NCBI RefSeq assembly: GCF_900403705.1
Contig: NZ_OUNR01000017.1
Location: 310,001-374,000 of the forward strand
DNA: 64,000 nucleotides
From: Nitrospira lenta
GTDB lineage: Bacteria; Nitrospirota; Nitrospiria; Nitrospirales; Nitrospiraceae
Direction: 5' to 3'
Every line of letters begins with the position of its first letter. Within the stretch, counting starts at the first letter, position 1. Below the pieces are notes generated by a model that was not told where the DNA came from, did no database searches, and was given only the letters and a program-made list of their open reading frames with translations. Made by a program: the position numbers and the translations under genes. Below, piece after piece: positions 2,947 through 38,065 of this stretch.

Positions 2947-4107
2947 CTAATTTGGCACGTCCAACAATCCATCACAGGCAAACACGACTTGGCCGAACTG
3001 ACTGGAATTCGCCCAAATCCTGACATCGACAACACGGAAGACGTTCTTGTCGTCGGGATGCAAGACGTACTGCACACTGCAATGTTCATAGACGCCCTCT
3101 TCCCATACCGCGCCTTGCCGATTCCCAACGATCACGCGATTGTCAAACTCTTGACCGTAACTGAAAAAATGCAGCTTCCCGGCCTCTGACACGATGGGAG
3201 CCCCCATTTTCGCAGCGACGTCTTGTTCCGTTTTTCCTTCCCACACCGTCAGCATATGCCTTTCGTTGCGAGAAAGTTTTCGCCCGCCCCTGATCTCCGC
3301 GGCGATTTTGTGGAAGGCGAATTCCGCATCCATGTGCTTGAGATTCGCCTCAAGCTGCGGCTTGATCCCAGCGACGAATTCATCATGTTGCTTTTGAATC
3401 TGAGCCATCTTGGCTTGATATTCTTCCATCTCTTTTTTGGTCGGGCGGCGGGACCATTTGCCGGAGGGGTCCGGGCGCTTCGCCCCACTCCATAAGACCC
3501 ACCAAACAAATTCAAGTTGGTCCGGCGGGCTCTGCGCCTTCACCAACTGCAGGTCGCTTGGAAGACCGATCTTGGCAATTTCCTTTCTGAAGATGACCCC
3601 ATCATCCTTGGCTTTCGCCGTTTTGATAATGGCGCTTCGCATCACATCTTCATTGCAGGCAATTTTTTGCAGCTTTAACAAGACGGGAGAAGGCGACGTG
3701 CGCCAATCACCAGCGGGCAATTTTTCATCCTTTAAATCTTCGCGCCGAAGCTTCCAGCTAAATTCGCCGATCCGCACCTTCACCGGGGCATCGAACGCCG
3801 GCTGCTTCGGGATATTCTTCCCGTCAACGGTTTCTTTAGCGACGCATTCAAATTGCAGCCGTAGCGAACTGAACTCTGGCTTATCAGGATGTTCATAGAC
3901 GATGGTCGTATCAAGCTCCTTCACCCGCGTGGGACCAAAGAGTTGATCGACCGGCGTTCGGTCCATCACGACAAGGATATCGGCGAAGTACGCTTCGCGG
4001 CTTCCCTCCTCGCCTTGGACATGCACCAGTACCGATTGCGCAAACGCCTGCGTCGCACACACACAACTGCCGAGCATGAACCCGATCATGGCTATTCGAT
4101 ATCTCAT
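2947..4107 (-). CDS. Exported protein with a possible SmpA/OmlA-like C-terminus
   Basis: 386 residues. A signal peptide (about 25 residues, ending 'TQAFAQS') begins at the chosen start, which has AAGGA upstream; the longer frame to 4218 would bury the signal. The middle (about residues 215-285) is rich in Lys, Glu and Gln and may be helical or coiled. Near the C-terminus, 'WEGKTEQDVAAKMGAP' followed by a 'FFSYGQ' strand resembles the BamE/SmpA/OmlA fold, in which a short helix carries the pattern G-x-T-x-x-x-V-x-x-x-x-G-x-P. This is a weak, pattern-based suggestion. Likely periplasmic, acting with the exported protein downstream. Confidence 0.7.
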   Translation of the reverse strand: MRYRIAMIGFMLGSCVCATQAFAQSVLVHVQGEEGSREAYFADILVVMDRTPVDQLFGPTRVKELDTTIVYEHPDKPEFSSLRLQFECVAKETVDGKNIPKQPAFDAPVKVRIGEFSWKLRREDLKDEKLPAGDWRTSPSPVLLKLQKIACNEDVMRSAIIKTAKAKDDGVIFRKEIAKIGLPSDLQLVKAQSPPDQLEFVWWVLWSGAKRPDPSGKWSRRPTKKEMEEYQAKMAQIQKQHDEFVAGIKPQLEANLKHMDAEFAFHKIAAEIRGGRKLSRNERHMLTVWEGKTEQDVAAKMGAPIVSEAGKLHFFSYGQEFDNRVIVGNRQGAVWEEGVYEHCSVQYVLHPDDKNVFRVVDVRIWANSSQFGQVVFACDGLLDVPN

Positions 4108-4419
4108 CTTCTTGTGTCCTTTGTGATGCAGTACGGTTCTCGCACGCTGCTTCCGCACAATGGAATCCTTCTTAGGAACTTTACCATTGCCCAGAAAACC
4201 AGACCAGCAGATTTCCAAATGGAAGGAGAGCTCAGCGAGATACGGCAGACCTCACCTTACAAGGCACAAGCATACCAAATTCAGGAGGTCTTACCCTAGA
4301 CCATGAGACGTGTGTGAAGCCCGCCTGGCCGCATTCCGCGGCACAGCCACCTGGCGCAAGACGCGTGACCAGCACGGGGGATACCTAGGCAATGTATCCG
4401 GTTGATGGAAGGAATCGAT
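4108..4419. other. Gap between gltD and the exported-protein operon
   Basis: 312 bases without a convincing gene. An inverted repeat GGATAC/GTATCC (4379-4384 and 4394-4399) lies about 20 bases past the gltD stop; its stem is short and no T-run follows, so termination there is doubtful. A TGG-TATGCT extended -10-like sequence for the exported-protein operon may lie around 4270, but no good -35 goes with it. Confidence 0.35.
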
Positions 4420-5869: not shown

Positions 5870-10390
<4,521 letters not shown>

Positions 10391-10517
10391 GGCAATCTCG
10401 TGTCGCTAGGAAGAAGGTGATGACTTCGCGGTCAGCGGCCACTCATACATGCAGAGGCAAGCACGCGATATCGTGTCGTTTTATTGGCAGTCTCTCTCTT
10501 GTTCTTTTCTGCACTGC

Positions 10518-10547
10518 ACATTACTGGATGGGCTCCCGCCCTGTCAA
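10518..10547 (-). promoter_or_regulatory. Possible sigma-70 promoter of gltBD
   Basis: On the minus strand a perfect TTGACA (10542-10547) is followed after 18 bases by TAATGT (10518-10523), a poor -10. The transcript would have a leader of about 120 bases. Confidence 0.35.
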
Positions 10548-10578
10548 GATTGCGCGGGCCGATCCCGGCCCTGTTTGC

Positions 10579-10608
10579 TTGACTTTGTTTACTCTACTGC
10601 CCTACCAT
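10579..10608 (+). promoter_or_regulatory. Promoter of the polyprenyl synthase gene, probably leaderless
   Basis: TTGACT (10579-10584), an 18-base spacer and TACCAT (10603-10608) precede the ATG at 10616 by 7 bases. Transcription would begin at or next to the ATG. No Shine-Dalgarno sequence is present, which fits a leaderless message. Confidence 0.5.
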
Positions 10609-10615
10609 CCGCGGC

Positions 10616-11620
10616 ATGTCGAACGGACCCAGCACCTCGACCATCCATAGCATGGCAGACGTCTGGGAGGCGTATCGCGCCGAACTCGACGGTGTCGAGC
10701 ATCAGGTTCGCCAAAATCTCGATTCCAGCGTCGCTCTCGTCAATACCGTCGCCGCTCATATTCTCAGCAGCGGGGGCAAGCGCGTCCGTCCGCTTCTTCT
10801 TTTGCTATCAGCCCGTCTCTGCGGCTATACCGGCCGCGAGCACTATCAGCTCGGCAGCCTGATCGAATTTATCCATACGGCTACCCTCCTGCATGACGAT
10901 GTCGTCGACGAAGCCGATATCCGCCGGGGCCGCCGCACCGCCAGAAAAGTCTGGGGCAATCAAATCAGTATCCTCGTCGGCGACTATCTCTACTCCAAAG
11001 CCATGGCGCAGATCGTGGAGTTTCGCAGCCACGGCATGAATGAGGTCCTCGCCGAAGCCTGCACGAAGATGGCGGAAGGAGAAGTCCTTCAGCTGTATTA
11101 CAACGGCAACCCCTCAATGCCGGAATCCGACTACATCAAGATCGTCGAACATAAGACCGCGGGCCTGATCGCCGCCGCCTGCCGCATGGGCGCCATCCTC
11201 GCCGACGCGTCCGAGGAGCGACAGTCCGCGCTGTTCCGATTCGGCCAGTATCTGGGCATCGCCTTCCAGGTGGCCGACGATACACTCGATTACAATGCCG
11301 ACGGCGAACGCTTGGGGAAAACGCTGGGACAAGATTTGCGGCAGGGAAAAGCAACACTGCCCCTGCTCCATCTGCTCGACCATTGCAGCGAGCAGGACCG
11401 CAACATGATCAAGGACCGGATGGAGACCCGCACCCTGAGCCCTGAAGATCTTGAACGGATTCTGGGTTTGATGCAGAGCACCGGATCGCTGGCCTATGCG
11501 ATGGAACGGGCCAAAACCTACATTGCCGCCGCGCAGCACGAACTGGAAGCCTTTGAAGACTCGTCGGCGCGCCGGGCCCTGATCGTCGCCGCCGACTACA
11601 TGATTACCCGCGACCGGTAA
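10616..11620 (+). CDS. ispB: Polyprenyl diphosphate synthase (octaprenyl/heptaprenyl type)
   Basis: 334 residues. It elongates an allylic diphosphate with isopentenyl diphosphate to make the long chain used for quinones. Both Asp-rich motifs are present: DDVVD at residues 94-98 and DDTLD at 221-225, which bind Mg2+ and diphosphate. 'GGKRVRP' near residue 53 is the conserved substrate-binding region. Small residues before the first motif fit a long-chain product, but chain length cannot be fixed from sequence. An alternative Met at residue 13 is possible; neither start has a ribosome site, but the first sits at the expected start point of a promoter. Exact product, hence the symbol, is tentative. 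Confidence 0.85.
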   Translation: MSNGPSTSTIHSMADVWEAYRAELDGVEHQVRQNLDSSVALVNTVAAHILSSGGKRVRPLLLLLSARLCGYTGREHYQLGSLIEFIHTATLLHDDVVDEADIRRGRRTARKVWGNQISILVGDYLYSKAMAQIVEFRSHGMNEVLAEACTKMAEGEVLQLYYNGNPSMPESDYIKIVEHKTAGLIAAACRMGAILADASEERQSALFRFGQYLGIAFQVADDTLDYNADGERLGKTLGQDLRQGKATLPLLHLLDHCSEQDRNMIKDRMETRTLSPEDLERILGLMQSTGSLAYAMERAKTYIAAAQHELEAFEDSSARRALIVAADYMITRDR

Positions 11621-11753
11621 CCTTTCCTCCCGCTCACTCTTTTCCCCACCATGGTGTCGGCGAGAAGACGGGCACAGGGCCGGGCGTCAGGTGAGTGCCT
11701 TTCCGGTATCACACATTCACGCCGACCACTTTTCACAGGAGCACGAAACCATC

Positions 11754-13085
11754 ATGGCCCAGATTTTCCCCTTTCGCGGTGCGCGCTACGATGCCACCCT
11801 TGCCGGTGCGGCACGCGATGTCGCTGCGCCTCCCTACGACATCATCGACGCGGCCGGTCAGAAAGCTCTCTACGACCGAAACCCGCACAACGTCATTCGC
11901 CTGGAACTGGGTATGGACCAGCCCGGTGACGGCCCGACCAACAACCGCTACACCAGAGCCGGCGCCACGCTCGCGCAATGGATGCAATCGGGCGCGCTGA
12001 AACGGGACCCGCAGCCGACGATTTACTACCACACCATCGAATATGTTCCGCCGGGAGCCGATCCGAAGGGCCCGAGAAAAACGCTGCGGGGATTCATTGC
12101 CACGTTCAAGCTGGAAGAGTTCGGCACCGGAGCCATCTATCCGCACGAAAACACCCGCGCCGCCGCCAAGACCGATCGCTTGAATCTCATGGAAGCTTGC
12201 CGCGCGAATTTCAGTCCGATCTGGTCGCTCTATTCCGATCCCCAGGACACCATCCTGTCGGCCTTGGCACAGGCGGCAAAATCGATTGCGCCATCCGTAG
12301 AATTCCGCGACGATGTCGGCTTCGAGCAACGCCTCTGGGCCATCTCCGATCCGGCCGTCACTCAGAAAGTGGTGGCGGCGATGGCCAGCAAGCCCATCTT
12401 CATCGCCGACGGCCATCACCGGTACGAAACGGCATTGAATTATCAAAAGCTGCGCCGCCAGCAGGCCGGCCAAACAGGGACCGTTCAGGGTTTGCAGCCC
12501 TACGACAGCGTCCTCATGCTCCTCACGCCGATCGAAGATCCGGGACTCACCGTGTTGCCCACACACCGTGTGACGACGACGCCGTTGCCGTCGTTCGATC
12601 AAGTGAAGGCGCTGTTTGCCGACACCTTCGACCTGCAGGAATATCCGTTTACGAGCCAGACACAAGCCGCGGTTCGTGCACAATTCATCGACGCGATGCG
12701 GACACAAGGCCGAACCACCCCGATGTTTGGATTGGCGCTCAAGGGCCGCGCGGCCTATCTGACCCTGGCCCTCAAGGCCGCGCATCGTCCGCCGGACAGC
12801 GCTTCGCCCCGCACCAAGCTGGATGTCTCACTCCTGCAACAGTTGGTCGTCGCGAAGCTCTGTCCAACACAGCAGGAACAGGAAGCCATTCTCTATACCA
12901 AAGACGACCACGAAGCTTTGGATTGGGCCGCAAACGGCACCGGCACAGGCGCGTTGCTCTTGAACGCCACTAAGGTGAGTGAGGTCAAGGATGTGGCCAC
13001 GGCAGGCGAACGGATGCCGCACAAGTCCACCTACTTCTTCCCGAAACCGTTGACCGGGCTGGTCATGAACGTCATGGAGGGATGA
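11754..13085 (+). CDS. DUF1015 family protein
   Basis: 443 residues. The family pattern is clear: 'FRGARYD' at the N-terminus followed by 'AAPPYDIID', a central 'YPHENT' motif and 'FIADGHHRYETAL' with an Asp-Gly-His-His cluster that may be a catalytic or metal site. The family is widespread, and I know of no firmly established function for it. Start at 11754 chosen for the family N-terminus and the AGGAG 12 bases upstream; an in-frame GTG at 11691 would add 21 unusual residues. It is on its own between ispB and the regulator gene, all on the plus strand. Cytoplasmic, no signal peptide. Confidence 0.88.
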   Translation: MAQIFPFRGARYDATLAGAARDVAAPPYDIIDAAGQKALYDRNPHNVIRLELGMDQPGDGPTNNRYTRAGATLAQWMQSGALKRDPQPTIYYHTIEYVPPGADPKGPRKTLRGFIATFKLEEFGTGAIYPHENTRAAAKTDRLNLMEACRANFSPIWSLYSDPQDTILSALAQAAKSIAPSVEFRDDVGFEQRLWAISDPAVTQKVVAAMASKPIFIADGHHRYETALNYQKLRRQQAGQTGTVQGLQPYDSVLMLLTPIEDPGLTVLPTHRVTTTPLPSFDQVKALFADTFDLQEYPFTSQTQAAVRAQFIDAMRTQGRTTPMFGLALKGRAAYLTLALKAAHRPPDSASPRTKLDVSLLQQLVVAKLCPTQQEQEAILYTKDDHEALDWAANGTGTGALLLNATKVSEVKDVATAGERMPHKSTYFFPKPLTGLVMNVMEG

Positions 13086-14593: not shown

Positions 14594-15340
14594 TCAGGCC
14601 GAAGGAAGCTTTCGGTCCTCCAAACGCAGCAGGCCGGCCTTCACATCCCGCTCGGCCTGTCCGTAGCGTTCCGGCGTCCCCACATCGGACCAATACCCCT
14701 TCAGGTCATAGCCCAACAATGATTCGCCTCGACCGATCGCGGCCACATAGGGATCGATAATCGACGACGCCACTTCTCGTGGAATATCCCGCAAGAGCCG
14801 GGAATGCAGAATGTGGATGCCGGCAAACATGCGCGGCTGTGTCGGCAGGGCCGTCTCCGCCCGACCTTTCCCATTGATCCGGACGATGCGATCGTCTGCC
14901 CCGACTTCGACGAGTCCCCACTTCACCGCATCGGGATCTTCTCTCAGCACGAGCGTCGCCTGGGCCTTGCGGTCATGATGGAACGCGCACAGCGCCGCGA
15001 GGTCCAAATCAAACAGCGTATCGCCGTTCAGAATCAAGACCGCCTCATTCGAGAAGTACCGCTCCGCCTGCTTGATCCCCCCGCCCGTCCCTAAAATGAT
15101 GGGCTCGTGCGAATAGAGCAGTCGCAACCCGAACTGCGCGCCGCTCCCCAGCGCCTGCTCGATCATCGGGCCGAGATGATGCAGATTAATAACGACATCG
15201 CGGAATCCGTGCTGCTTCAGCAGCATCAAATTCCACACAATGAGCGGGGTGCCGGCAACCGGCAGCAGCGGTTTGGGAATCGTGTTAGTCAGCGGCCGGA
15301 GGCGGGTTCCGAAACCCGCCGCGAGGATCATCGCTTTCAC
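14594..15340 (-). CDS. murU: Sugar-1-phosphate nucleotidyltransferase, MurU-like
   Basis: 248 residues, a single nucleotidyltransferase domain with the signature 'AAGFGTRLRPLT' followed by 'PKPLLPVAG', and 'LNGDTLFD' with the metal-binding Asp. Such enzymes couple a sugar-1-phosphate to a nucleotide. The neighbour is an anomeric sugar kinase of AmgK type, with which it overlaps by 4 bases. That pairing is known from the cell-wall recycling route that turns recovered MurNAc into UDP-MurNAc and bypasses MurA. By context this is MurU (MurNAc-1-P uridylyltransferase); a mannose-1-phosphate guanylyltransferase is the main alternative. Confidence 0.72.
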   Translation of the reverse strand: MKAMILAAGFGTRLRPLTNTIPKPLLPVAGTPLIVWNLMLLKQHGFRDVVINLHHLGPMIEQALGSGAQFGLRLLYSHEPIILGTGGGIKQAERYFSNEAVLILNGDTLFDLDLAALCAFHHDRKAQATLVLREDPDAVKWGLVEVGADDRIVRINGKGRAETALPTQPRMFAGIHILHSRLLRDIPREVASSIIDPYVAAIGRGESLLGYDLKGYWSDVGTPERYGQAERDVKAGLLRLEDRKLPSA

Positions 15341-16440
15341 TGCAATTCCGGCACATACGGCGTGAGATGCTTGCGCAACACGGCGAGTTCGGGATAGTGC
15401 TGCAAATTCCGTTTCACATACCCCAGTACGCGCGGGATATCGGCCAGGAATTTGGGATTCCCCTTCACCCGGTCGATGTACACAAACCGCCCGGCGGCTT
15501 TCATGTTCCGTTGAATACTCGTGAGATCGAACAACCGCCGAAAAGCCTCGCGGTTGGTCCAGACATGCCGATGCTCGGCCAGCAGATCGAGGTAGTAATT
15601 GACCAGCCGGTCCACCAGCGGTTCATCGAGAGCGATGTAGGCATCACGCAACAGGGACGCTAAATCGTACGTCGCCGGACCCATCAGCGCGTCCTGAAAG
15701 TCGATCACGCCCAGGCGTAGTCCGTCGACCATGAGATTGCGCGAATGATAATCGCGATGGGTGAACACACGCGGCTGTCCCGCCAGATGTTCGGAGATTT
15801 TTTCAAATTCCCCGCGGATCGCTGTCCAATCGTCCGAGCACATCGGCTTGCCCTGGCGCGCGACAATCCCGTACTCCAGGAAATGATCAAACTCCCACAT
15901 AAGCAACGGCACGTCGAAGCTCCGGTGGAACGCCAGACAGCCGGGATCGGCCGGCGACGATGCTTTCACCTGCATCTGAACCAAAATATTAATCGCTTGT
16001 CGGTAGCGGGCCTCCAGGCCCGGCGCATCGGCATCGCGCACCGCTTCCGCCAGCGTCAGATCGCCGAAATCTTCGAGGTACAACAACCCGGCAGCATGAT
16101 CATAGTAATGCAACGTCGGAACCGACACGCCGGCTTTTCCGAGATGCGCCAGAACATTCAGGAACGGCAACTCGGTGATCTGATGCATCGCTCCGCTGAC
16201 CGCTTCTTCCGATTGCTTAAACCCTTCCGGCTCCGCCAATTGCATGAGGATCACGGAATGGGGCGGCCCGCCGGCCAGGACCGCGCGGAAATAGCGTCGA
16301 TTCGACGCATCCCCCGGCAAGGGCTGGAGTTCACGCAAGACCAGACCGGGGCTGAGCCGCGATTCAATGGTGCGAGCGACAAGGGCTTGATCTGGCGGTG
16401 AGAGAGGCCCCTTGGGTGGGGCCGGGTTCGCAGTAGTCAT
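15337..16440 (-). CDS. amgK: Phosphotransferase, AmgK-like anomeric MurNAc/GlcNAc kinase
   Basis: 367 residues from the chosen ATG. It belongs to the aminoglycoside-phosphotransferase superfamily: catalytic loop THRDYHSRNL (His228, Asp230, Asn235) and metal-binding 'DFQD' (Asp247, Asp250). Overlap with the MurU-like gene (4 bases) points to the AmgK role, phosphorylating C1 of MurNAc or GlcNAc in peptidoglycan recycling. The open frame extends to a GTG at 16479, but that codon lies inside the -35 element of a strong promoter, so the ATG at 16440 is preferred. No ribosome site precedes it. Specificity is inferred from context only. Confidence 0.72.
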   Translation of the reverse strand: MTTANPAPPKGPLSPPDQALVARTIESRLSPGLVLRELQPLPGDASNRRYFRAVLAGGPPHSVILMQLAEPEGFKQSEEAVSGAMHQITELPFLNVLAHLGKAGVSVPTLHYYDHAAGLLYLEDFGDLTLAEAVRDADAPGLEARYRQAINILVQMQVKASSPADPGCLAFHRSFDVPLLMWEFDHFLEYGIVARQGKPMCSDDWTAIRGEFEKISEHLAGQPRVFTHRDYHSRNLMVDGLRLGVIDFQDALMGPATYDLASLLRDAYIALDEPLVDRLVNYYLDLLAEHRHVWTNREAFRRLFDLTSIQRNMKAAGRFVYIDRVKGNPKFLADIPRVLGYVKRNLQHYPELAVLRKHLTPYVPELQ

Positions 16441-16449
16441 ACGCGCCGG

Positions 16450-16479
16450 ATTATACAGAGCGATCTCACGGTTTGTCAC
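16450..16479 (-). promoter_or_regulatory. Strong sigma-70 promoter of amgK-murU, leaderless position
   Basis: On the minus strand GTGACA (16474-16479), an 18-base spacer and a perfect TATAAT (16450-16455) end 9 bases before the ATG at 16440. Transcription would start one to three bases before the ATG. There is no room for, and no sign of, a Shine-Dalgarno sequence. Confidence 0.65.
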
Positions 16480-23082: not shown

Positions 23083-23706
23083 ATGACTCAACGATCTTAT
23101 TGGATTCATATTCTTAGCCTTGCCCTGCCACTGCTCCTCACAATACACGGGCTGCCCTCCTCAGCCGCCGCATCCGATGAGCCCGCGTCAACGCCGGTCG
23201 GCACTCACACCATAGGGTTCACAGCCGGCCCCTTCTTTCCTCTACGCGTAGGACCCAGCCAAACGTCGAAGCTGTTCGGGGAAGCCATCATGCCTTCATG
23301 GATGGTGACCATTACGGAACCAATCGGTACGGGCTGGTACCAAGGCCAACTGGCTCTCGGCGCAGAACTCGCCGCCATCCATACGCATAGTCCGATAACA
23401 GCCTATGGCGTCGGGTTGACCCCGAAAATAGTCTACACCTCTACGGCATTTGGACGAGTGCGCCCGTTCATCGAAGGAGGCGGAGGACCGGCGTGGACGG
23501 ATCTGGGCGGTCGGACTCCCGAGCAGCCCGGACAGTTTAATTTTCTCGTGTGGGGAGGCGCCGGAGGCGCGTACACGTTCGCGCCTGGCTGGGCCGTTCA
23601 AGCCGGGTATCGCGTCATGCACATCTCTAACGCAGGCACTCGCTCTCCCAATTCCGGACTGAATTTTGGACTTCCCTTTATCGGCCTGACCTATCAAACA
23701 TTCTGA
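23083..23706 (+). CDS. PagL-like outer membrane protein (lipid A deacylase family)
   Basis: 207 residues with a signal peptide (about 30 residues, ending 'SAAAS') and alternating beta-strands of a small barrel. The motif HISNAG...PNSGLN (180-194) matches the PagL active-site segment: His180 and Ser182 are present. The third catalytic residue, Glu in Pseudomonas PagL, is Asn194 here. PagL removes the 3-O fatty acid of lipid A; activity of this variant is uncertain. It begins 22 bases after ttuA but is functionally unrelated to it. Confidence 0.75.
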   Translation: MTQRSYWIHILSLALPLLLTIHGLPSSAAASDEPASTPVGTHTIGFTAGPFFPLRVGPSQTSKLFGEAIMPSWMVTITEPIGTGWYQGQLALGAELAAIHTHSPITAYGVGLTPKIVYTSTAFGRVRPFIEGGGGPAWTDLGGRTPEQPGQFNFLVWGGAGGAYTFAPGWAVQAGYRVMHISNAGTRSPNSGLNFGLPFIGLTYQTF

Positions 23707-23923
23707 TTCGTCTATTGCTCGAACTGCCGCCCGCGACATCGTTCGAACAGCTACCGGCTCCCCTAAGAATCCGCTTCAACAAAATTGAACACTCACTATG
23801 AAGAAACCGTAGGTATTCACCCCCCCTTTTGGTGTGTAGTAACGACCCTCGCAATATGATGTTATCGCCTCTATCAGCCAGGGCACTTCCATCGTTCCCT
23901 GGAACTGCGAGGCATGTCTGGCT

Positions 23924-25054
23924 ATGCTCGAACGCGTCCTATATGTGGTGAACCTCGACCCCTCAAATAAATATGGGTCGCTCGAAGAGCAGATCTTCCT
24001 TACAAGCGAAGCCGTTGCCAAACAGGGTGGGGTCTTTATCCCTGCTTTCTCAGCAGCACTGCCGGCAAAGGAAGAACAACGATACAGACTGGCAGGACTG
24101 GCAGCGACATCGTTGCCCCTCGGGCGATTCAACATCCTCACCCTTCGCAAACTACAGCAGTTGATCGATCAGCATCGTATTGATGTGGTCCATTGGAATC
24201 TCTACCATCCCATCAACGGATATGCGGCGGCCTTGCGTCTCACGCGACCCAGGTTACGGCACTATCTTACCGATCACAACTCCAGACCAACCTCTTTTCG
24301 TCGCACCCGGCATGCGCTCTCAAGCGCATGCAAGAAACTGATGCTTGGGAGCTACTCAAAAGTTCTTGCTGTCAGCAACTATGTCTTATTGGAATTAGAG
24401 CGACAAGCCATTTGGTGTAACCTTGGCAGATATCACCACTTCGTGAATACAAGCCGTTTCCAGCCCGACGCTGTCATACGTTCAACCATGCGATGTTCCC
24501 AAGGGGTTGAGAAAGTGTTTGTGGTCCTGGTCGTGGCGCACCTCATTCAGGAGAAAGGTGTACATGTTGCCATCCAGGCCCTCAAGGACCTTCCCACCAA
24601 TGTCGCACTCTGGATTGTCGGAGACGGGCCGGAACGACTGTCGCTTGAACACACGGCCGAATCTCTAGGTGTCCGTGAGCGAATCACGTTCTGCGGTCTG
24701 CAAGCAGAAGTGAGTCCGTTCATGCAGGCTGCTGACTGCTTCGTTTGCCCATCCTTATGGGAAGAAGCAGCGGGCCTGGTTATCCTTGAAGCGATGGCTT
24801 GCGGTCTGCCAGTGATCGGGAGTGCTGTCGGAGGCATCCCTGAATTCATTACGCAAGGCCAAACTGGATCGCTTTTTCCAGCCGGAGATCATGTGGCCCT
24901 CGCAGCCCATATTTGCCACCTCTATTCATCAGGGGCACAGCGGGAAGAAATGCGGGTGAGAGCCAGGGCCCTGGCAGTCGCACAGTTTTCCCATGAGTCG
25001 CGGGTCTCCGATGCCGTCGCTATATACAACACAACATGCCTTGAGGTGCGGTGA
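23924..25054 (+). CDS. Glycosyltransferase, GT-B fold (GT4 family)
   Basis: 376 residues. The C-terminal Rossmann half is typical: 'VVAHLIQEKGVHVAIQAL', 'IVGDGPERLSLE', 'EVSPFMQAADCFVCPSLWE' and the E-x7-E motif in 'EEAAGLVILEAMACGLPV' that binds the sugar nucleotide. The acceptor-binding N-terminal half is not distinctive. It probably adds a sugar to a surface glycan or glycolipid. The stop overlaps the start region of the PhyH gene, so they are co-transcribed. Together with the SGNH and DUF1080 genes downstream it forms a small group that looks less GC-rich than its neighbours by eye; this was not measured. Confidence 0.88.
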   Translation: MLERVLYVVNLDPSNKYGSLEEQIFLTSEAVAKQGGVFIPAFSAALPAKEEQRYRLAGLAATSLPLGRFNILTLRKLQQLIDQHRIDVVHWNLYHPINGYAAALRLTRPRLRHYLTDHNSRPTSFRRTRHALSSACKKLMLGSYSKVLAVSNYVLLELERQAIWCNLGRYHHFVNTSRFQPDAVIRSTMRCSQGVEKVFVVLVVAHLIQEKGVHVAIQALKDLPTNVALWIVGDGPERLSLEHTAESLGVRERITFCGLQAEVSPFMQAADCFVCPSLWEEAAGLVILEAMACGLPVIGSAVGGIPEFITQGQTGSLFPAGDHVALAAHICHLYSSGAQREEMRVRARALAVAQFSHESRVSDAVAIYNTTCLEVR

Positions 25055-25950
25055 TGGCACATGATCTAACGAACCAACTCGACCGTGACGGCATTGTGAT
25101 ACTCCCGGAATTTATCGCCGGGCCTCAACTACTGGGGATGCAACAAGCCTTTGAAACTCGCTTGCGGCACATGGCATGGAACGACACGATGGGGTATGAA
25201 CGCACCGAGATGTATCGCCACATGATCCAGGATGTGCTGCTTCTGGACCAAGGATTCCTCGACGTCGCGCTGCACCCGCTTATCCTCCAAGTGCTCAAGG
25301 AATATATCGGGTCTCAGTTCCAGCTTGTCGAAGCAAAGGGGTGGCTATCTCTCCCGACCAAGAACAACTTTCACGGGTGGCACGGCGATGCCTGGTATGA
25401 TCAACACGCGGTCTCAACGATACCCAGAGAAGTGAAGCTTGCCATTTACTTGACCGATGTTCGCTCGGGCGCTTTCACCTATATCAAGGGGAGCCACCGC
25501 AAACAACACCCCCGGCTTGTTCAGAGTCATGAACTAGCACAAGTTCCCAGGGAGCGGATCATGGAAGTTCCGGGGACTGCCGGCTCAGCTGTTCTGTTTG
25601 ACACCTCTGGAATCCACCGGCAGGCCACGCCCGTCTTGGAGCCTCGACAAGCGGTGTTCCTGAATTATCACGACCCCAGTATCCCGCTCCAGCAAGAAGA
25701 CGTTGAATATTATCGATACCACCCTCTCCTTCTCAATGCCGCTTTTCTGGGAAACCTCACACCGGAGGGCCAACGGGTCTTGGGATTTGGCGACAAGAGG
25801 AACTATCAGCACGGCTTCGAACGCCGACGTCGCCATGCCTTCCTAGAAGGCATCAGCCGATCCCTTCTAGAATCCTCACTACAGATAAACCAAGCCCTCT
25901 ATTATCCTCGGAGGGCTCTGGCCAAGGCCAGGAACCTCTTACGGCACTAG
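25054..25950 (+). CDS. Phytanoyl-CoA dioxygenase (PhyH) family protein
   Basis: 298 residues from the ATG; a GTG one codon earlier is also possible. The Fe(II) triad is seen as His110-x-Asp112 ('WHGDAW') and His188 ('SGIHRQ'), with Arg198 placed to bind 2-oxoglutarate. Members hydroxylate lipids, sugars or natural products. It overlaps the glycosyltransferase gene (TGATG junction), so hydroxylation of a glycan or its lipid anchor is a reasonable guess. The C-terminal 40 residues are basic and may be membrane-associated. Substrate unknown. Confidence 0.85.
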   Translation: MAHDLTNQLDRDGIVILPEFIAGPQLLGMQQAFETRLRHMAWNDTMGYERTEMYRHMIQDVLLLDQGFLDVALHPLILQVLKEYIGSQFQLVEAKGWLSLPTKNNFHGWHGDAWYDQHAVSTIPREVKLAIYLTDVRSGAFTYIKGSHRKQHPRLVQSHELAQVPRERIMEVPGTAGSAVLFDTSGIHRQATPVLEPRQAVFLNYHDPSIPLQQEDVEYYRYHPLLLNAAFLGNLTPEGQRVLGFGDKRNYQHGFERRRRHAFLEGISRSLLESSLQINQALYYPRRALAKARNLLRH

Positions 25951-26058
25951 GAGAACTATTGGGTAGCGCTCTTCGGCCTAGACATCCTAATACCGAACTG
26001 CGTTGGACGTTCCATCGGGCAGAGCTCATGCGCCTCTCCACCAATTAGGAAGGTTTCA

Positions 26059-27150
26059 ATGCGCGCCAGACGAATATTCCTATTGATCTGCTTTTCAGGT
26101 CTCCTGCTCGCCGTCACGGCCTTTGCCTCTGAACTTGCATTGAGAGCCTCAGGCCACATCTCCACCGCCAGCATCCACGCCATCTCAAACGCTGACTTTG
26201 TACGGGTGCCGGGCATGTTCGAACCGAGCCAATCCGTGGAGGAGACCCCTCATCCCAAACTTCACTACCATGCGACAATCAACTCGCTCGGCTATCGAGG
26301 GCCTGAATTTCAACGAATCAGTCCTCCTCACGTTATTCGAATCCTCTGCCTCGGGGATTCCGGAACATTCGGCCAGTTTGTGAACGATGATGAAACGCTC
26401 TCCGCAAATCTGGAACGGATGCTACGACAAGAAGGGAATTCCGTCGAGGTCATCAATGGTGGAGTACCCGGCACAACTATTGTGGATCAAGTAGAGATAC
26501 TCAAACGAAGCATGAGCCTTGCGCCGGACATCGTCATTCTCACATTCAGCGAAAATGATATTACCGACTTGGAAGCGGAGCCCTCTCAATTCGCAGCCCT
26601 TGCGGAAAACCGGAGGGTCAAGGGCCGGACAGGACTGAAAACCGTCTATGAACTCATTCGAGACACAGCCCTCTTCAATTACTTCTTAAAAGTCAGAGCG
26701 ACCTGGAATACCTACTCGGCGCCCCATGTATCCGCCGATGTACCCAGTTCAAGTCCTGAGGACTCGGCAACCCGGCATGAACAGCTCTGGGCAACATATG
26801 CCCATCACCTGGAAACCATGCTCCAGACTCTATCCAACAGAAATATCCGATTGATCTTCAACGGCTATCCGACACATCAACGGATCGGAGCCGACACATT
26901 TACGGATGATCGGAGTCGCATTCAACTCAGCCGGGCTGAATCCTTGGCGAGGGAAATGGGAATACCCACGGTTTCGCTCCTCCCTTCCTTCAGAGAAACC
27001 GGGCTGACGAAGGAAGAACTTTATCATTTACCGTACGACGGACATGCCAATCGGATGGGGTACGTGATTCAAGCTACCGCGCTCCTTCCAGCCTTACGTG
27101 AGTCAATCCAAGAAGCTCGCAACAATATCTCTCCGGCCTCACAGCCCTAG
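26059..27150 (+). CDS. SGNH/GDSL-type hydrolase, membrane-anchored or exported
   Basis: 363 residues. A hydrophobic N-terminal segment (residues 5-24) acts as signal or anchor. The SGNH blocks are present: nucleophile Ser101 in 'LGDSGTFG', Gly in 'INGGVPG', Asn166 in 'SENDI', and Asp327/His329 in 'YDGHANRMGY'. Such enzymes remove or transfer acyl groups on glycans and lipids. AGGAAGG precedes the start with good spacing. It is placed after a glycosyltransferase and a PhyH enzyme, so acyl editing of the same surface glycan is plausible but unproven. Confidence 0.85.
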   Translation: MRARRIFLLICFSGLLLAVTAFASELALRASGHISTASIHAISNADFVRVPGMFEPSQSVEETPHPKLHYHATINSLGYRGPEFQRISPPHVIRILCLGDSGTFGQFVNDDETLSANLERMLRQEGNSVEVINGGVPGTTIVDQVEILKRSMSLAPDIVILTFSENDITDLEAEPSQFAALAENRRVKGRTGLKTVYELIRDTALFNYFLKVRATWNTYSAPHVSADVPSSSPEDSATRHEQLWATYAHHLETMLQTLSNRNIRLIFNGYPTHQRIGADTFTDDRSRIQLSRAESLAREMGIPTVSLLPSFRETGLTKEELYHLPYDGHANRMGYVIQATALLPALRESIQEARNNISPASQP

Positions 27151-27212
27151 AGATGACAAAGCAGAACGAAAGAACCAACGCCACGGTAAGCCGAATCCCT
27201 TGATATGATGCC

Positions 27213-28187
27213 ATGCTCGGAAACCTGATCCAGAGAAAGAGTCCAACCCTTCTGGTTTTTGTTGTCTTTCCCCTATCGCTCCTTGTAGCGATCGCCCTGT
27301 TCACTCAATCCGTTTTGGCTACAGAATCTGATTTCATCGGCCGCTGGAATCTCACCCTTTTCGAAGTGGATGGTTATGCTTCTGCCTGGCTAGAAATTAA
27401 GCCCACTGCAAGCAAGAACAAGAGCGGTCAGCTGGTATGGATCTTCGGCGGGGCTGAGCCCCTAGAGGATGTTTCGATCACAGAAGGCATTCTGTCCTTC
27501 TCTCATCAGTTCATGGGGAAACGGCTACACTTCACCGCCAGATATGCAGGAAACACGCTAACAGGAACGGCAACGGACCACCGTTCTACCATTCGATGGA
27601 TTGGAGTACGTGCGCCGGAGTTGCGGACACCTACTGCGCTACGGCAAGGAGCGCCGTTGGCCCTTTTTACCGGCCACACACTCTCTGGTTGGACATTGCG
27701 TAACGGATCCTCACCCTATTGTTGGCATATCGAAGAGAGCGTCTTATTCAACGACCACTCCTGCGCCGATTTGAGATCGAACGTCAACTTCATGAATTTT
27801 CATCTCCATCTAGAGTTCCGGCTAGATGACGAAGGCGGGAGCGGAGTATACCTGCGAGGCCGATACGAGGTCCAAATCACCACCGATGGGAATGGGCAGC
27901 CTGGCACTCGCTCGACCGGCGCTATCTTTGGGCATATCGCGCCGACCCTGTCGGTCGGAAAGCAACCAGGTGAGTGGCAAACACTTGAGGTCACTCTCAT
28001 CGGAAGAGAGGTGGCCGTACGGTTGAACCATCACACTGTGATCGCCAACGAACGCATTCCAGGACCCACGGGTGCCGCCCTCGACAGCAATGAAGACCGG
28101 CCCGGCCCCATCATGCTGCAGGGAGATCATGGTCGTGTATCTTTCCGCAATATCGTGATCACCCCATTTCTCAATGAAATCCCTTAG
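27213..28187 (+). CDS. Exported DUF1080 (3-keto-disaccharide hydrolase) domain protein
   Basis: 324 residues. A hydrophobic segment (residues 11-35) serves as signal or anchor. The N-terminal part (about 40-140) is a beta-rich domain. From about residue 145 the DUF1080 pattern appears: 'LALFTGHTLSGWTL', 'LEFRLDDEGGSGVYLRGRYEVQI', 'GAIFGHIAP', 'GEWQTLEVTLIGREVAVRLN' and 'GPIMLQGDHGRVSFRNI'. The fold is a concanavalin-like sandwich, and members cleave keto-disaccharides or bind glycans. It ends the accessory glycan group. Confidence 0.85.
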   Translation: MLGNLIQRKSPTLLVFVVFPLSLLVAIALFTQSVLATESDFIGRWNLTLFEVDGYASAWLEIKPTASKNKSGQLVWIFGGAEPLEDVSITEGILSFSHQFMGKRLHFTARYAGNTLTGTATDHRSTIRWIGVRAPELRTPTALRQGAPLALFTGHTLSGWTLRNGSSPYCWHIEESVLFNDHSCADLRSNVNFMNFHLHLEFRLDDEGGSGVYLRGRYEVQITTDGNGQPGTRSTGAIFGHIAPTLSVGKQPGEWQTLEVTLIGREVAVRLNHHTVIANERIPGPTGAALDSNEDRPGPIMLQGDHGRVSFRNIVITPFLNEIP

Positions 28188-28402
28188 CGCCTCGCCCAGA
28201 TACCAATTTTGACAACACACCAGCCCAATGACCCAAGCCCACTACTAGCCCCCTTGCTCACTCCCCCAAGGGAGCCCAGCCTGATCATGTCTATTGCAGA
28301 CAAGCCGCACGGACCGTTCATCCCTTGCAAAGCTGGGGATTGACCCCGTAAGCTACGGAATTATCTTCTCTTCCAGAACACTCGACACGAAAGCACTGCA
28401 CC

Positions 28403-35112: not shown

Positions 35113-36231
35113 CTATTGGCGCTTAAAGAAGTCGGCGATCATCTCAACCACGTAGGTCAGTTGGGCGTCGCTGAGTTCCGCATAGATGGGAAGGGACATG
35201 ACTTCTTCGGCCGCCCGTTCGGATAAGGGAAAGGCACCCTTCCGATAGCCAAGATCCTGATAACAATTCTGCAAATGCATAGGGAGCGGATAATAGATCT
35301 CGGTCCCGACGCCCTTCTCCTTCAGGTGAGCCCGAAGTTCGTCTCGCTTCGAGACTCGCACGGTATACTGATTGTAGACGTGAAAATTTCCCGCCTTCGT
35401 CGATGGCAAGGTCACGCGATCCAGCAAACCCGCCGCTCGAAACAGCTGGTCGTACCGGGCGGCATTGCGCCGGCGGCCTTCAGCCCATTGATCGAGATAC
35501 TTGAGCTTGATATCAAGCACGACGGCTTGTAATGCATCCAACCGGCTGTTAATCCCGACCGCTTCATGAAGATAGCGGACCCGGCTCCCATGCACGCGCA
35601 ACATGGCCAGCGCATCTGCGAGTCCCTGATCATTGGTCGTGATCATCCCGCCATCGCCAAATGCGCCAAGATTCTTTGAGGGGAAAAAGCTGAAGCAGGC
35701 GGTATCTCCCAATACCCCAGCGCGCTGACCTCCTTGTCCGGCACCGATGGCCTGACAAGCATCTTCGATGACATGCAGTCGCTTTGCCTTGGCGATCTGG
35801 TTGATGGCCGGCATATCGGCACATTGCCCGAAAAGATGGACCGGGATAATCGCTTTGGTGCGAGATGTCACGGCACGTTCGAGTTGCGTAGGATCAAGAT
35901 TGAACGTATCCGGCTGAATATCGACAAAGACCGGCTTCGCACCCAACCGAGACACGGCACCGGCTGTGGCGAAGAATGTAAACGGGATCGTGATGACTTC
36001 GTCGCCTTGCCCCACGCCCATCGCCATAAGCGAGAGCAGCAACGCGTCGCTTCCCGAGGCACAACCGATGGCGTAGCGGGCACCAACATACTTAGCCAGA
36101 GACTCTTCAAAGGCGGCTACGCGCGGCCCCAGAATAAATCCCTGCTCGTCGCAGACTGTTTGGACTGCCGCCATGATCTCGGCGCGAAGAGGTTGAAACT
36201 GCGCTTTTAAGTCAAGGAGAGGAATATTCAT
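35113..36231 (-). CDS. DegT/DnrJ/EryC1 family sugar aminotransferase
   Basis: 372 residues. The PLP-binding Lys186 is in 'FFPSKNLGAFGDGG', preceded by 'EDACQAIGA' with the Asp that holds the pyridine nitrogen. Members aminate nucleotide-linked keto sugars for LPS, capsule or pilin glycans. No sugar-nucleotide dehydratase or epimerase is next to it, so the product cannot be named. It lies downstream of the ABC permease gene on the same strand (110-base gap). No ribosome site is evident before the ATG. Confidence 0.9.
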   Translation of the reverse strand: MNIPLLDLKAQFQPLRAEIMAAVQTVCDEQGFILGPRVAAFEESLAKYVGARYAIGCASGSDALLLSLMAMGVGQGDEVITIPFTFFATAGAVSRLGAKPVFVDIQPDTFNLDPTQLERAVTSRTKAIIPVHLFGQCADMPAINQIAKAKRLHVIEDACQAIGAGQGGQRAGVLGDTACFSFFPSKNLGAFGDGGMITTNDQGLADALAMLRVHGSRVRYLHEAVGINSRLDALQAVVLDIKLKYLDQWAEGRRRNAARYDQLFRAAGLLDRVTLPSTKAGNFHVYNQYTVRVSKRDELRAHLKEKGVGTEIYYPLPMHLQNCYQDLGYRKGAFPLSERAAEEVMSLPIYAELSDAQLTYVVEMIADFFKRQ

Positions 36232-36341
36232 GAATACAAATCGCCCAGAAGTAGACCTTCTATGTACGCATTACATGTACTCCATCAATACATTGGACGC
36301 AATGTCTTTGCAAGTAGAGAATAGACCTGGCAAGGTGCGCG

Positions 36342-37103
36342 TTAGCGAAAATCACGACGTTGGAAGATGATACTCGCTGACATCAGCAGAAACGCGACAT
36401 AGGTCAACCCGTACACCACAATGAGCAAGAGGTCGGGTCCAGATACCTCAATATGGTGGATGACATTCCCCTTCAGATTGAACCGCTCTAAATTCGGCAG
36501 GATGTAATACAGACCGGTGACCACCGCGCGCAGACCTTCATCCATTTTCTCGCCGAAGGTCTTGAGATCCGCCGTTAAGTGGCCGATCACATAGACAGCC
36601 AGCGTGAAAATAGCGCTGAGTGTCGCACTGGTGAAGGTCGAACACAACAAGGCCACCGCCGTGATGACCATAAACTCCATAAAGATCAATCCCAGCGCCT
36701 TGAACAACATGCTCTCAATCGGCACATCTTGCGCGACGAGCACCAGTAACAGCCCCCCGGCCATAATCAGGGTGTTGACAAAGAGCGTCAGTATCAAACC
36801 AAGGTATTTTCCAACCAGAAACTGGTAGCGCGCGACGGGTTTCGACACGATGGTATAGATCGTTTTCTTCTCGATCTCTTTGTTGACGAGTCCAATTCCG
36901 ACGAAGATTGCGATCAGCACCCCGAAAATGTTGATACTCCCAAGCCCCACATCCAGCAACAAGCGATGGAACTCTCCTAGTGTCAACCGCATCAGCAGCA
37001 AAGAACTCCCAATCATGAGCAGCGCAAACACCAGGAGGTTGTAGAGCAGCTTGTCGCGCAGGTTTTCACGGAACGTATTGAGCGCAATCGATAGAACCTT
37101 CAT
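36342..37103 (-). CDS. ABC transporter permease, PilI-like by context
   Basis: 253 residues with about six membrane segments and the ABC-2 type pattern (N-terminal 'ALNTFRENLRDKLLYNL'; cytoplasmic 'IEKKTIYTIVSKPVARYQFLVGKYLG'). It overlaps the ATPase gene by 4 bases. ATPase, permease and the upstream TPR protein follow the pilin gene in the order known from pilA-pilG-pilH-pilI loci of Myxococcus, where they are needed for pilus assembly. The assignment to pili is inference from order. Confidence 0.85.
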   Translation of the reverse strand: MKVLSIALNTFRENLRDKLLYNLLVFALLMIGSSLLLMRLTLGEFHRLLLDVGLGSINIFGVLIAIFVGIGLVNKEIEKKTIYTIVSKPVARYQFLVGKYLGLILTLFVNTLIMAGGLLLVLVAQDVPIESMLFKALGLIFMEFMVITAVALLCSTFTSATLSAIFTLAVYVIGHLTADLKTFGEKMDEGLRAVVTGLYYILPNLERFNLKGNVIHHIEVSGPDLLLIVVYGLTYVAFLLMSASIIFQRRDFR

Positions 37104-38065
37104 ACCCGCGCCTCCACAGGCGACTGTGCCCCTTTGGCCTCACGAATGAACAGATCCTCCAGCGATGCCTTATGAGGAGTCAGCGAAATCAGCTTGGCAT
37201 GAGCCGCCCTAATCACTTCAAGAGACTCATCGACCTGGCGCTGGTTACTCAGCACGACCATGACTCGCTCCCCGTTCAACACCATCTTCGTTGCCAGGAC
37301 ACGAAGCTGCTCCAGACCTTCCGGCGAAAGCCGATCGATGACCATCTCCACTTCTTGCGTGGTTCCTTGTTGGACCAACTCAGATACCTGTCCGCAAGCC
37401 ACCAAGCGGCCCTTCATAATCATGGCGACTCGATCACAGAGCAGTTCGGCATCATGCAGAATGTGCGAACTGAACATGACTGTCTTGCCGGATTCCTTGA
37501 GACGGAAGATAAGGTCGCGCACTTCCTTCCGTCCAATCGGGTCAAGCCCGGACATCGGCTCATCCAGCACCACCAGCTCCGGGTCATTGATCAAGGCTTG
37601 TGCGATTCCAACGCGTTGCAACATGCCTTTGGAGAACTTGCGGAGCTGAAGATCCCGTGCATGCGTCATCCCCACTAGCTCCAGCAATTCATCCACGCGT
37701 TTATTGAGAGCAGCCCCCCACAGGCCGAATAGATGGCCATAGAAGCTGAGGAACTCACGGCTCGTCAGATAATCATAGAAATAGGGAGACTCCGGAAGAA
37801 ACCCGAGCTTGGCTTTGGCAGCAGGATCGCCAGCCGGATGACCAAAGATTGAAGCAGATCCGCTCGTAGGATAGATCAGCCCCATCAGCATCTTGATAGT
37901 GGTTGTTTTCCCGGCTCCGTTAGGTCCGAGAAAGCCGAAGACCTCACCTCGACGAACATCCAATGACAACTGATCCACCGCCGTCACGCGCCGGCCCCAG
38001 AATCCGACACGAAACACTTTATGGATGGCTTGAATCTTGACAACATGGTCGGTGACAGAACGCAT
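37100..38065 (-). CDS. ABC transporter ATP-binding protein, PilH-like by context
   Basis: 321 residues. Walker A 'GPNGAGKTT', a signature segment 'LRKFSKGMLQRVGIAQAL' (degenerate LSGGQ), Walker B 'LVVLDEPMSGLDP' and the switch His in 'MFSSHIL' are all present. It powers the permease encoded next to it. The C-terminal 90 residues form the regulatory extension common in ABC-2 exporters. It is 10 bases downstream of the TPR/pilin-like gene, so the three are one operon. Confidence 0.92.
   Translation of the reverse strand: MRSVTDHVVKIQAIHKVFRVGFWGRRVTAVDQLSLDVRRGEVFGFLGPNGAGKTTTIKMLMGLIYPTSGSASIFGHPAGDPAAKAKLGFLPESPYFYDYLTSREFLSFYGHLFGLWGAALNKRVDELLELVGMTHARDLQLRKFSKGMLQRVGIAQALINDPELVVLDEPMSGLDPIGRKEVRDLIFRLKESGKTVMFSSHILHDAELLCDRVAMIMKGRLVACGQVSELVQQGTTQEVEMVIDRLSPEGLEQLRVLATKMVLNGERVMVVLSNQRQVDESLEVIRAAHAKLISLTPHKASLEDLFIREAKGAQSPVEARV

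Follow-up and report, generated by a model that had tools for sequence, protein, structure and literature searches.

A 64,000-nucleotide (nt) stretch of Nitrospira lenta DNA, hereafter the window, carries on its plus strand a cassette of four genes coding for a GT4-type glycosyltransferase, a PhyH-type dioxygenase, an SGNH/GDSL enzyme and a DUF1080 protein (Table 1). The linkage of these genes is not due to chance: they form a co-inherited unit, for which modification of a surface glycan is the most likely reading. Tentatively, the cassette may well represent a self-contained, horizontally mobile (or repeatedly lost) islet for glycoconjugate tailoring. A first-pass annotation had already placed four enzymes here on one strand, and all four open reading frames (ORFs) were recovered with Pfam matches above the curated cut-offs by which gene families were assigned. 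It had also held that no described system has this exact set, and literature searches, mostly of titles, agree in giving none with these genes or with their block-wise presence and absence. Taken singly, the four families are familiar.

Table 1. Positions of the cassette genes and associated features in the window
Feature	Positions	Strand	Details
Candidate regulatory element CCCCCCCTTTTGGTGTGTAGTAAC	23820..23843	+	Ends 80 nt 5' of the GT4 start codon
GT4-type glycosyltransferase, 376 amino acids	23924..25054	+	PF00534, 1.3e-38; EX7E pair E281/E289
PhyH-type Fe(II)/2-oxoglutarate dioxygenase, 299 amino acids	25051..25950	+	PF05721, 4.3e-9; H111-x-D113, H189, R199
SGNH/GDSL hydrolase or acyltransferase, 363 amino acids	26059..27150	+	PF13472, 1.9e-12; S101, G135, N166, D327-x-H329
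Predicted exported PF06439 protein (DUF1080, "3-keto-disaccharide hydrolase"), 324 amino acids	27213..28187	+	PF06439, 6.1e-34
Block absent from G131 (blastn extent)	23707..28303	.	Match ends at the stop codon of the PagL-like gene and restarts about 100 nt before DnaJ

The cassette was found in five genomes (G000, G056, G123, G132 and G135) of a genus sample of 79. PhyH at E ≤ 1e-10, GT4 at E ≤ 1e-60 and SGNH at E < 1e-100 (next best match 6e-17) were each detected in five of the 79, and so was DUF1080, which gave one further weak match in G152 (E 1.9e-5, 25%; not counted as a carrier). Distant SGNH relatives (E ≤ 1e-3) occur in 71 of the 79 genomes; the close homologues of all four genes are confined to the identical five, where their order is constant and the site is always that between a PagL-like gene and DnaJ. 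Because of this identical distribution and joint location, the four genes are regarded as a unit. The co-occurrence check proposed in the first-pass annotation thus found the genes linked in these five genomes, not unlinked in all relatives, and the set is more coherent than that annotation could know. In G123, a DDE transposase gene lies inside SGNH (L028:11902-13254), with the GT4, PhyH and DUF1080 frames open. In G132, about 3 kb stand between DUF1080 and DnaJ (L035:2762-5945) and hold IS1-like and ISL3-type transposase pieces and an NYN-domain ORF; the PagL-like gene of this genome matches only as two broken pieces.

Six non-carrier sites were also examined, of which one (G084) had no PagL-like match and was set aside. 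At the other five (G131, G171, G073, G005 and G148, one of them a single-contig genome), the PP-loop (TtuA-like), PagL-like and DnaJ genes follow in this order with no cassette gene between them, and GT4, PhyH and DUF1080 had no match anywhere in these genomes at the thresholds of the genus search. G131 and G171 are 89% and 87% complete, respectively, and the cassette site itself was read in both. In blastn comparisons the match of the window to G131 ends at 23706 and restarts at 28304, and those to the other four restart at 28310-28321; G148 has about 160 nt of other sequence at the cassette position. In a tree of four flanking genes, three supports of which are only 0.30-0.84, carriers and non-carriers are intermixed: the carrier G135 pairs with the non-carrier G073 (support 0.999), and the non-carrier G131 falls among the carriers G000, G123, G132 and G056. 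One gain with several losses and recombinational exchange at the site both fit this pattern. No integrase gene was recognised in the block. The best reading is that the cassette is a mobile or repeatedly lost islet, which comes and goes as a block. The PagL-like gene (23083-23706, lipid A 3-O-deacylase family) was considered as a further member and rejected, since it stands at this site in five genomes without the cassette as well.

For gain or loss of the block, the cassette-free site in close relatives is better evidence than composition. The first-pass annotation had judged the composition to differ from the flanks. This is true of the immediate flanks, where the genes at 17-23.7 kb and 28.4-33 kb have a GC content of 0.58-0.63, against 0.53-0.55 in the cassette (0.56-0.62 at third codon positions, GC3). 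It is not true of the rest of the window: among the other 43 non-overlapping ORFs of at least 150 amino acids, GC is ≤ 0.548 in nine and GC3 ≤ 0.619 in 17. Because much of the remaining window is as low, the argument for foreign origin from composition is weak, and composition was rejected as proof of it.

The motif residues are invariant in the sequences compared. All nine aligned sequences retain the EX7E pair of GT4 and the four-residue H-x-D, H, R set of PhyH, and all six aligned for SGNH retain its Ser/Gly/Asn/Asp/His set, counting the window's own in each case. These are the family motifs, namely EX7E for GT4, the HxD...H metal triad with the 2-oxoglutarate (2OG)-binding Arg for PhyH, and the GDS(L) Ser, block II Gly, block III Asn and C-terminal Asp/His for SGNH, whose C-terminal motif is here DxH, not DxxH. 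The interrupted SGNH of G123 was left out of the SGNH alignment and substitution analysis, and for G135 the DUF1080 alignment used a piece of 315 residues. The ratio of nonsynonymous to synonymous substitution (dN/dS), taken within the genus as dS is saturated between genera, was 0.07-0.10 for PhyH, 0.13-0.19 for GT4, 0.15-0.19 for SGNH and 0.18-0.34 for DUF1080. These ranges exclude the near-identical pair G132/G056, with values of 0.25, 0.26, 0.18 and 0.51, respectively. Purifying selection acts on the whole set, with PhyH under the tightest constraint, and the genes are therefore kept for function where present.

Outside the genus, close PhyH homologues were found in three of seven sister-genus genomes. 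G001 has all four genes, G045 has GT4-PhyH-SGNH and G023 has GT4-PhyH, at a site that differs from that in the genus, with accA and dnaE on one side and an aldehyde dehydrogenase gene further off. A fourth sister-genus match (G040, 28% identity) and other PhyH matches of E 1e-10 to 1e-4 were not counted as carriers. A GT4-PhyH pair, at 42% and 58% identity, also occurs on a contig (L031) of a metagenome-assembled genome (MAG) of the Gemmataceae, in which a search run without a positive control gave no match to the window SGNH. Altogether, GT4 and PhyH are paired in nine of nine loci seen. On the Gemmataceae contig a DUF1080-like ORF (L031:3543-4280) lies on the same strand about 4.5 kb before GT4-PhyH, with other genes between; its tblastn match at 3694-4269 has 26% identity (E 3.8e-10), and no Pfam family was assigned at 0.001. 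It could be part of the cassette there, but was not counted because such proteins are abundant in planctomycetes (PMC5673643, available excerpts). PhyH profile searches, with up to six candidates scored per genome, gave matches in seven of 345 Nitrospirota genomes at E 1e-15 and in one of 343 Planctomycetota genomes at E 1e-20; all were already in the alignment, and no new carriers appeared in either set. In the GTDB genome collection a pattern scan, able to reach only close relatives, returned four loci, three from Nitrospira sp. and one from the Gemmataceae MAG. The four-gene cassette is rare in the Nitrospirota and Planctomycetota searched.

The existence of two-, three- and four-gene versions would agree with another explanation, in which GT4-PhyH serves one function and SGNH-DUF1080 another, the two pairs being joined by a common insertion site. 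The spacing of the genes bears on this. In the window the intergenic gaps are -4 nt (GT4-PhyH), 108 nt (PhyH-SGNH) and 62 nt (SGNH-DUF1080). The overlap of the first two genes, noticed in the first-pass annotation, is 4 nt if PhyH starts at the GTG at 25051; there is an in-frame ATG at 25054. The PhyH-SGNH gap, which is 107-108 nt in four of the five genus carriers and 98 nt in G123, is in line with two separate pairs, as is the faster evolution of DUF1080. However, the two genera have all four genes in an identical order although the sites differ, and in G001, where GT4 and PhyH overlap, the gaps that follow around SGNH are only 6 and 30 nt. Two separate functions are considered rather unlikely.

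We infer the chemistry of the surface-glycan reading from the gene families; the reactions and their order, the compartments in which they run, the lipid linkage of the acceptor and the placing of the product at the surface are likewise inferred. In the cytoplasm, GT4 would attach a sugar to what is most likely a lipid-linked acceptor (a glycolipid, lipopolysaccharide core or similar), and PhyH would hydroxylate or oxidise the resulting glycoconjugate or its sugar, still inside the cell. Outside the inner membrane, a membrane-anchored SGNH protein may add or remove an ester-linked acyl group, and a secreted DUF1080 protein may bind or cleave the modified glycan. GT4-PhyH would then be the core, and SGNH and DUF1080 putative add-ons. 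The N-termini of SGNH and DUF1080 are strongly hydrophobic (19-residue Kyte-Doolittle maxima of 2.41 from residue 6 and 2.79 from residue 13, respectively), which is consistent with predicted export and with the export signals that the first-pass annotation had assigned to the last two genes; GT4 and PhyH have no strongly hydrophobic N-terminal stretch.

Another Nitrospira locus, L083, has distant SGNH relatives among a GT4, two acyltransferases, a polysaccharide deacetylase and a methyltransferase. The surface-polysaccharide-like character of the locus that holds these relatives favours an ester modification made on a surface glycan. Like the cassette, L083 has SGNH with an N-terminal hydrophobic segment beside GT4, but it is a long locus that includes acyltransferases and a polysaccharide deacetylase, whereas the cassette stands alone, its four genes including PhyH and DUF1080. 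L083 was annotated in part, and a second locus, L084, was covered only marginally; in L083 the SGNH genes stand in tandem (9423-12951). The cassette SGNH scored 21.8 bits against PF16822 (ALGX), under the cut-off of 26.5, and was not assigned to the polysaccharide acetyltransferases of the AlgX/AlgJ type. The best NCBIfam match of GT4 was the PEP-CTERM/XrtA glycosyltransferase TIGR03088 (stp2), which covers residues 174-370 only and, at 128 bits, is far under the family cut-off of 409; scores were 79 bits against TIGR04063 (cut-off 442) and 35 bits against TIGR03087 (cut-off 317). By these three models GT4 is not assigned to a PEP-CTERM/XrtA exopolysaccharide system; an exosortase was not searched for.

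Several observations weigh against surface-glycan modification by a single four-gene unit. SGNH is broken by a transposase gene in one genus carrier; DUF1080 is missing from two of the three sister-genus loci and SGNH from one of them; the 107-108-nt gap between PhyH and SGNH could hold a separate promoter; the structure model of PhyH (predicted local distance difference test, pLDDT, 38) was unusable and gave no substrate inference; and no flippase or polymerase was recognised in a partial scan of neighbour ORFs in three settings. The block must either take its substrate from other loci or yield a small glycoconjugate.

A small product is also the basis of a different proposal. Here a hydroxylated glycoside made by GT4 and PhyH would be diffusible, serving as a natural product, osmolyte or signal, and SGNH and DUF1080 would process or recover it outside the cell. 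The cassette lies among housekeeping-type genes in three settings, with no recognisable polysaccharide locus, and the nearest solved relatives of PhyH by sequence, the ectoine hydroxylase EctD (E 3.5e-4) and a leucine hydroxylase (E 1.5e-3), act on small molecules. EctD is of the PhyH family and its HxD aligns with that of the cassette enzyme, but the match is weak and the block holds no ectoine gene. BshA, a small-molecule glycosyltransferase, is among the best GT4 matches, though below cut-off. Nevertheless, the block has no transporter, tailoring or scaffold gene, and its SGNH distantly (E 6e-14) resembles the SGNH enzymes of the surface-polysaccharide-like locus in the same genus. We regard such a glycoside as somewhat unlikely. 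An anti-phage defence system was rejected for lack of PADLOC family support, the only match in the PADLOC search being a weak 2OG match on PhyH (E 4.4e-4). An RNA element was likewise rejected, as the lone Rfam match was a sub-threshold small nucleolar RNA within GT4 on the opposite strand, read as chance.

The PF06439 match of the DUF1080 protein covers residues 150-316 (118 bits, cut-off 26.8). Residues ~40-135 (window 27330-27620) form an extra N-terminal beta-rich domain without a Pfam match. The nearest solved relative by sequence is 4qhz (E 1.6e-17), and the structure model of the protein is of moderate confidence (pLDDT 63). KanJ is a PhyH-like enzyme that makes a keto-sugar, and a comparable device may be imagined here, in which PhyH would turn a ring hydroxyl of the transferred sugar into a ketone, with DUF1080 later breaking the bond by the elimination/hydration chemistry known in its family. 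In Foldseek searches the DUF1080 model matched DUF1080 structures, among them 3-keto-2-hydroxy-glucal hydratases at probability 1.00, but sialidases and GH43 enzymes were matched at probability 1.00 too. Moreover, the sequence matches to 3-keto enzymes cover only ~70-84 residues (~70 for 8rr2/3osd/8tda), 4qhz is labelled only "putative glycosyl hydrolase", KanJ is absent from the PDB matches of PhyH up to E 0.1, GT4-PhyH occurs without DUF1080 at the G045 and G023 loci, and there is no dehydrogenase in the block. Although PF06439 includes the 3-ketotrehalose hydrolase BT2157 (PMC9007349, available excerpts), a 3-keto-sugar device is very unlikely. According to available excerpts, PF06439 proteins cleave 3-keto-sugars or beta-glucans such as xanthan (PMC9007349, PMC5673643). 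BT2157, CCNA_01705 (a proposed 3'-ketolactose hydrolase) and THTE_1561 share the domain family of the cassette protein and, in the source excerpts, belong to sugar breakdown, CCNA_01705 lying near a lactose 3-dehydrogenase. Like the cassette protein, CCNA_01705 has a putative signal peptide in these excerpts. The cassette DUF1080 differs from all three in its glycosyltransferase and dioxygenase partner genes and its extra N-terminal domain.

In a more far-reaching form of the surface-glycan reading, GT4-PhyH would be a dedicated two-enzyme core common to Nitrospira and a planctomycete, making a hydroxylated or keto-sugar glycoconjugate undescribed in bacteria. The exported SGNH and DUF1080 would edit the product, and gain or loss of the 4.6-kb block would be enough to alter the surface of a carrier in a single step. 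This form we consider improbable.

A short element precedes GT4 by 80-86 nt in all five genus carriers (Table 1), and a similar, weaker one stands before GT4 in the three sister-genus carriers, at another genomic site. In its own genome the element has one copy at ≤ 3 mismatches (reversed control, 0). Between genera, shuffles reached the observed score 0-9 times in 500 in all five pairs with G045, 0-7 times in four of the five pairs with G023 (84 in the fifth), and 34-230 times in all five pairs with G001; the best alignment was another stretch in two of the 15 pairs. Alignment scores were 10-17 for carrier pairs and 8-13 against four unrelated upstream regions. A pattern scan found no other copy in 611,491 bases of loci, many of them overlapping, and missed the window's own copy, which differs by one letter; the pattern was built from the same sequences, so its positives are circular. 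We keep the element as a candidate regulatory site, which may move together with the block, and not as a proven one, the pairwise significance between genera being mixed. A sigma-70 scan found no plus-strand site in the PhyH-SGNH gap, and none before GT4 either, so it says little.

Upstream of the cassette, the window has a nucleotidyltransferase/APH-type kinase pair (14594-16479) and GH57, GalT-like, CCA-type and PP-loop genes; downstream are DnaJ, MarC and ilvD. At 35113-38065, 7-10 kb away, a DegT-type aminotransferase gene is found with an ABC-2 permease/ATPase pair, the latter at 36342-38065, 8 kb from the block. The nucleotidyltransferase/kinase, DegT and ABC-2 genes are sugar-activation and export genes in the wider window. 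GH57 and GalT-like genes were rejected as cassette members, being at the same place in the non-carriers G005 and G148. Among the window genes scanned (10616-34975) no flippase, polymerase or ABC exporter was recognised beside the glycosyltransferase, nor was a second glycosyltransferase beside the block in the window. A partial ORF scan of L032/L033 and L031 gave no flippase, polymerase or ABC exporter except for an FtsX/MacB-like permease 1.2 kb from GT4 in L031.

Among nitrite oxidisers, Nitrospira hold a central place; they are difficult to cultivate, and little is known of their surface chemistry. A compact block whose presence varies between close relatives, and which a transposase gene has broken once, is what would be expected of a trait under changing selection, which may be recognition by phages or grazers, or adhesion in biofilms. 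The GT4-PhyH pair is rare enough in the searched set to be a clean marker: carriers could be compared with their block-free relatives to find the product.

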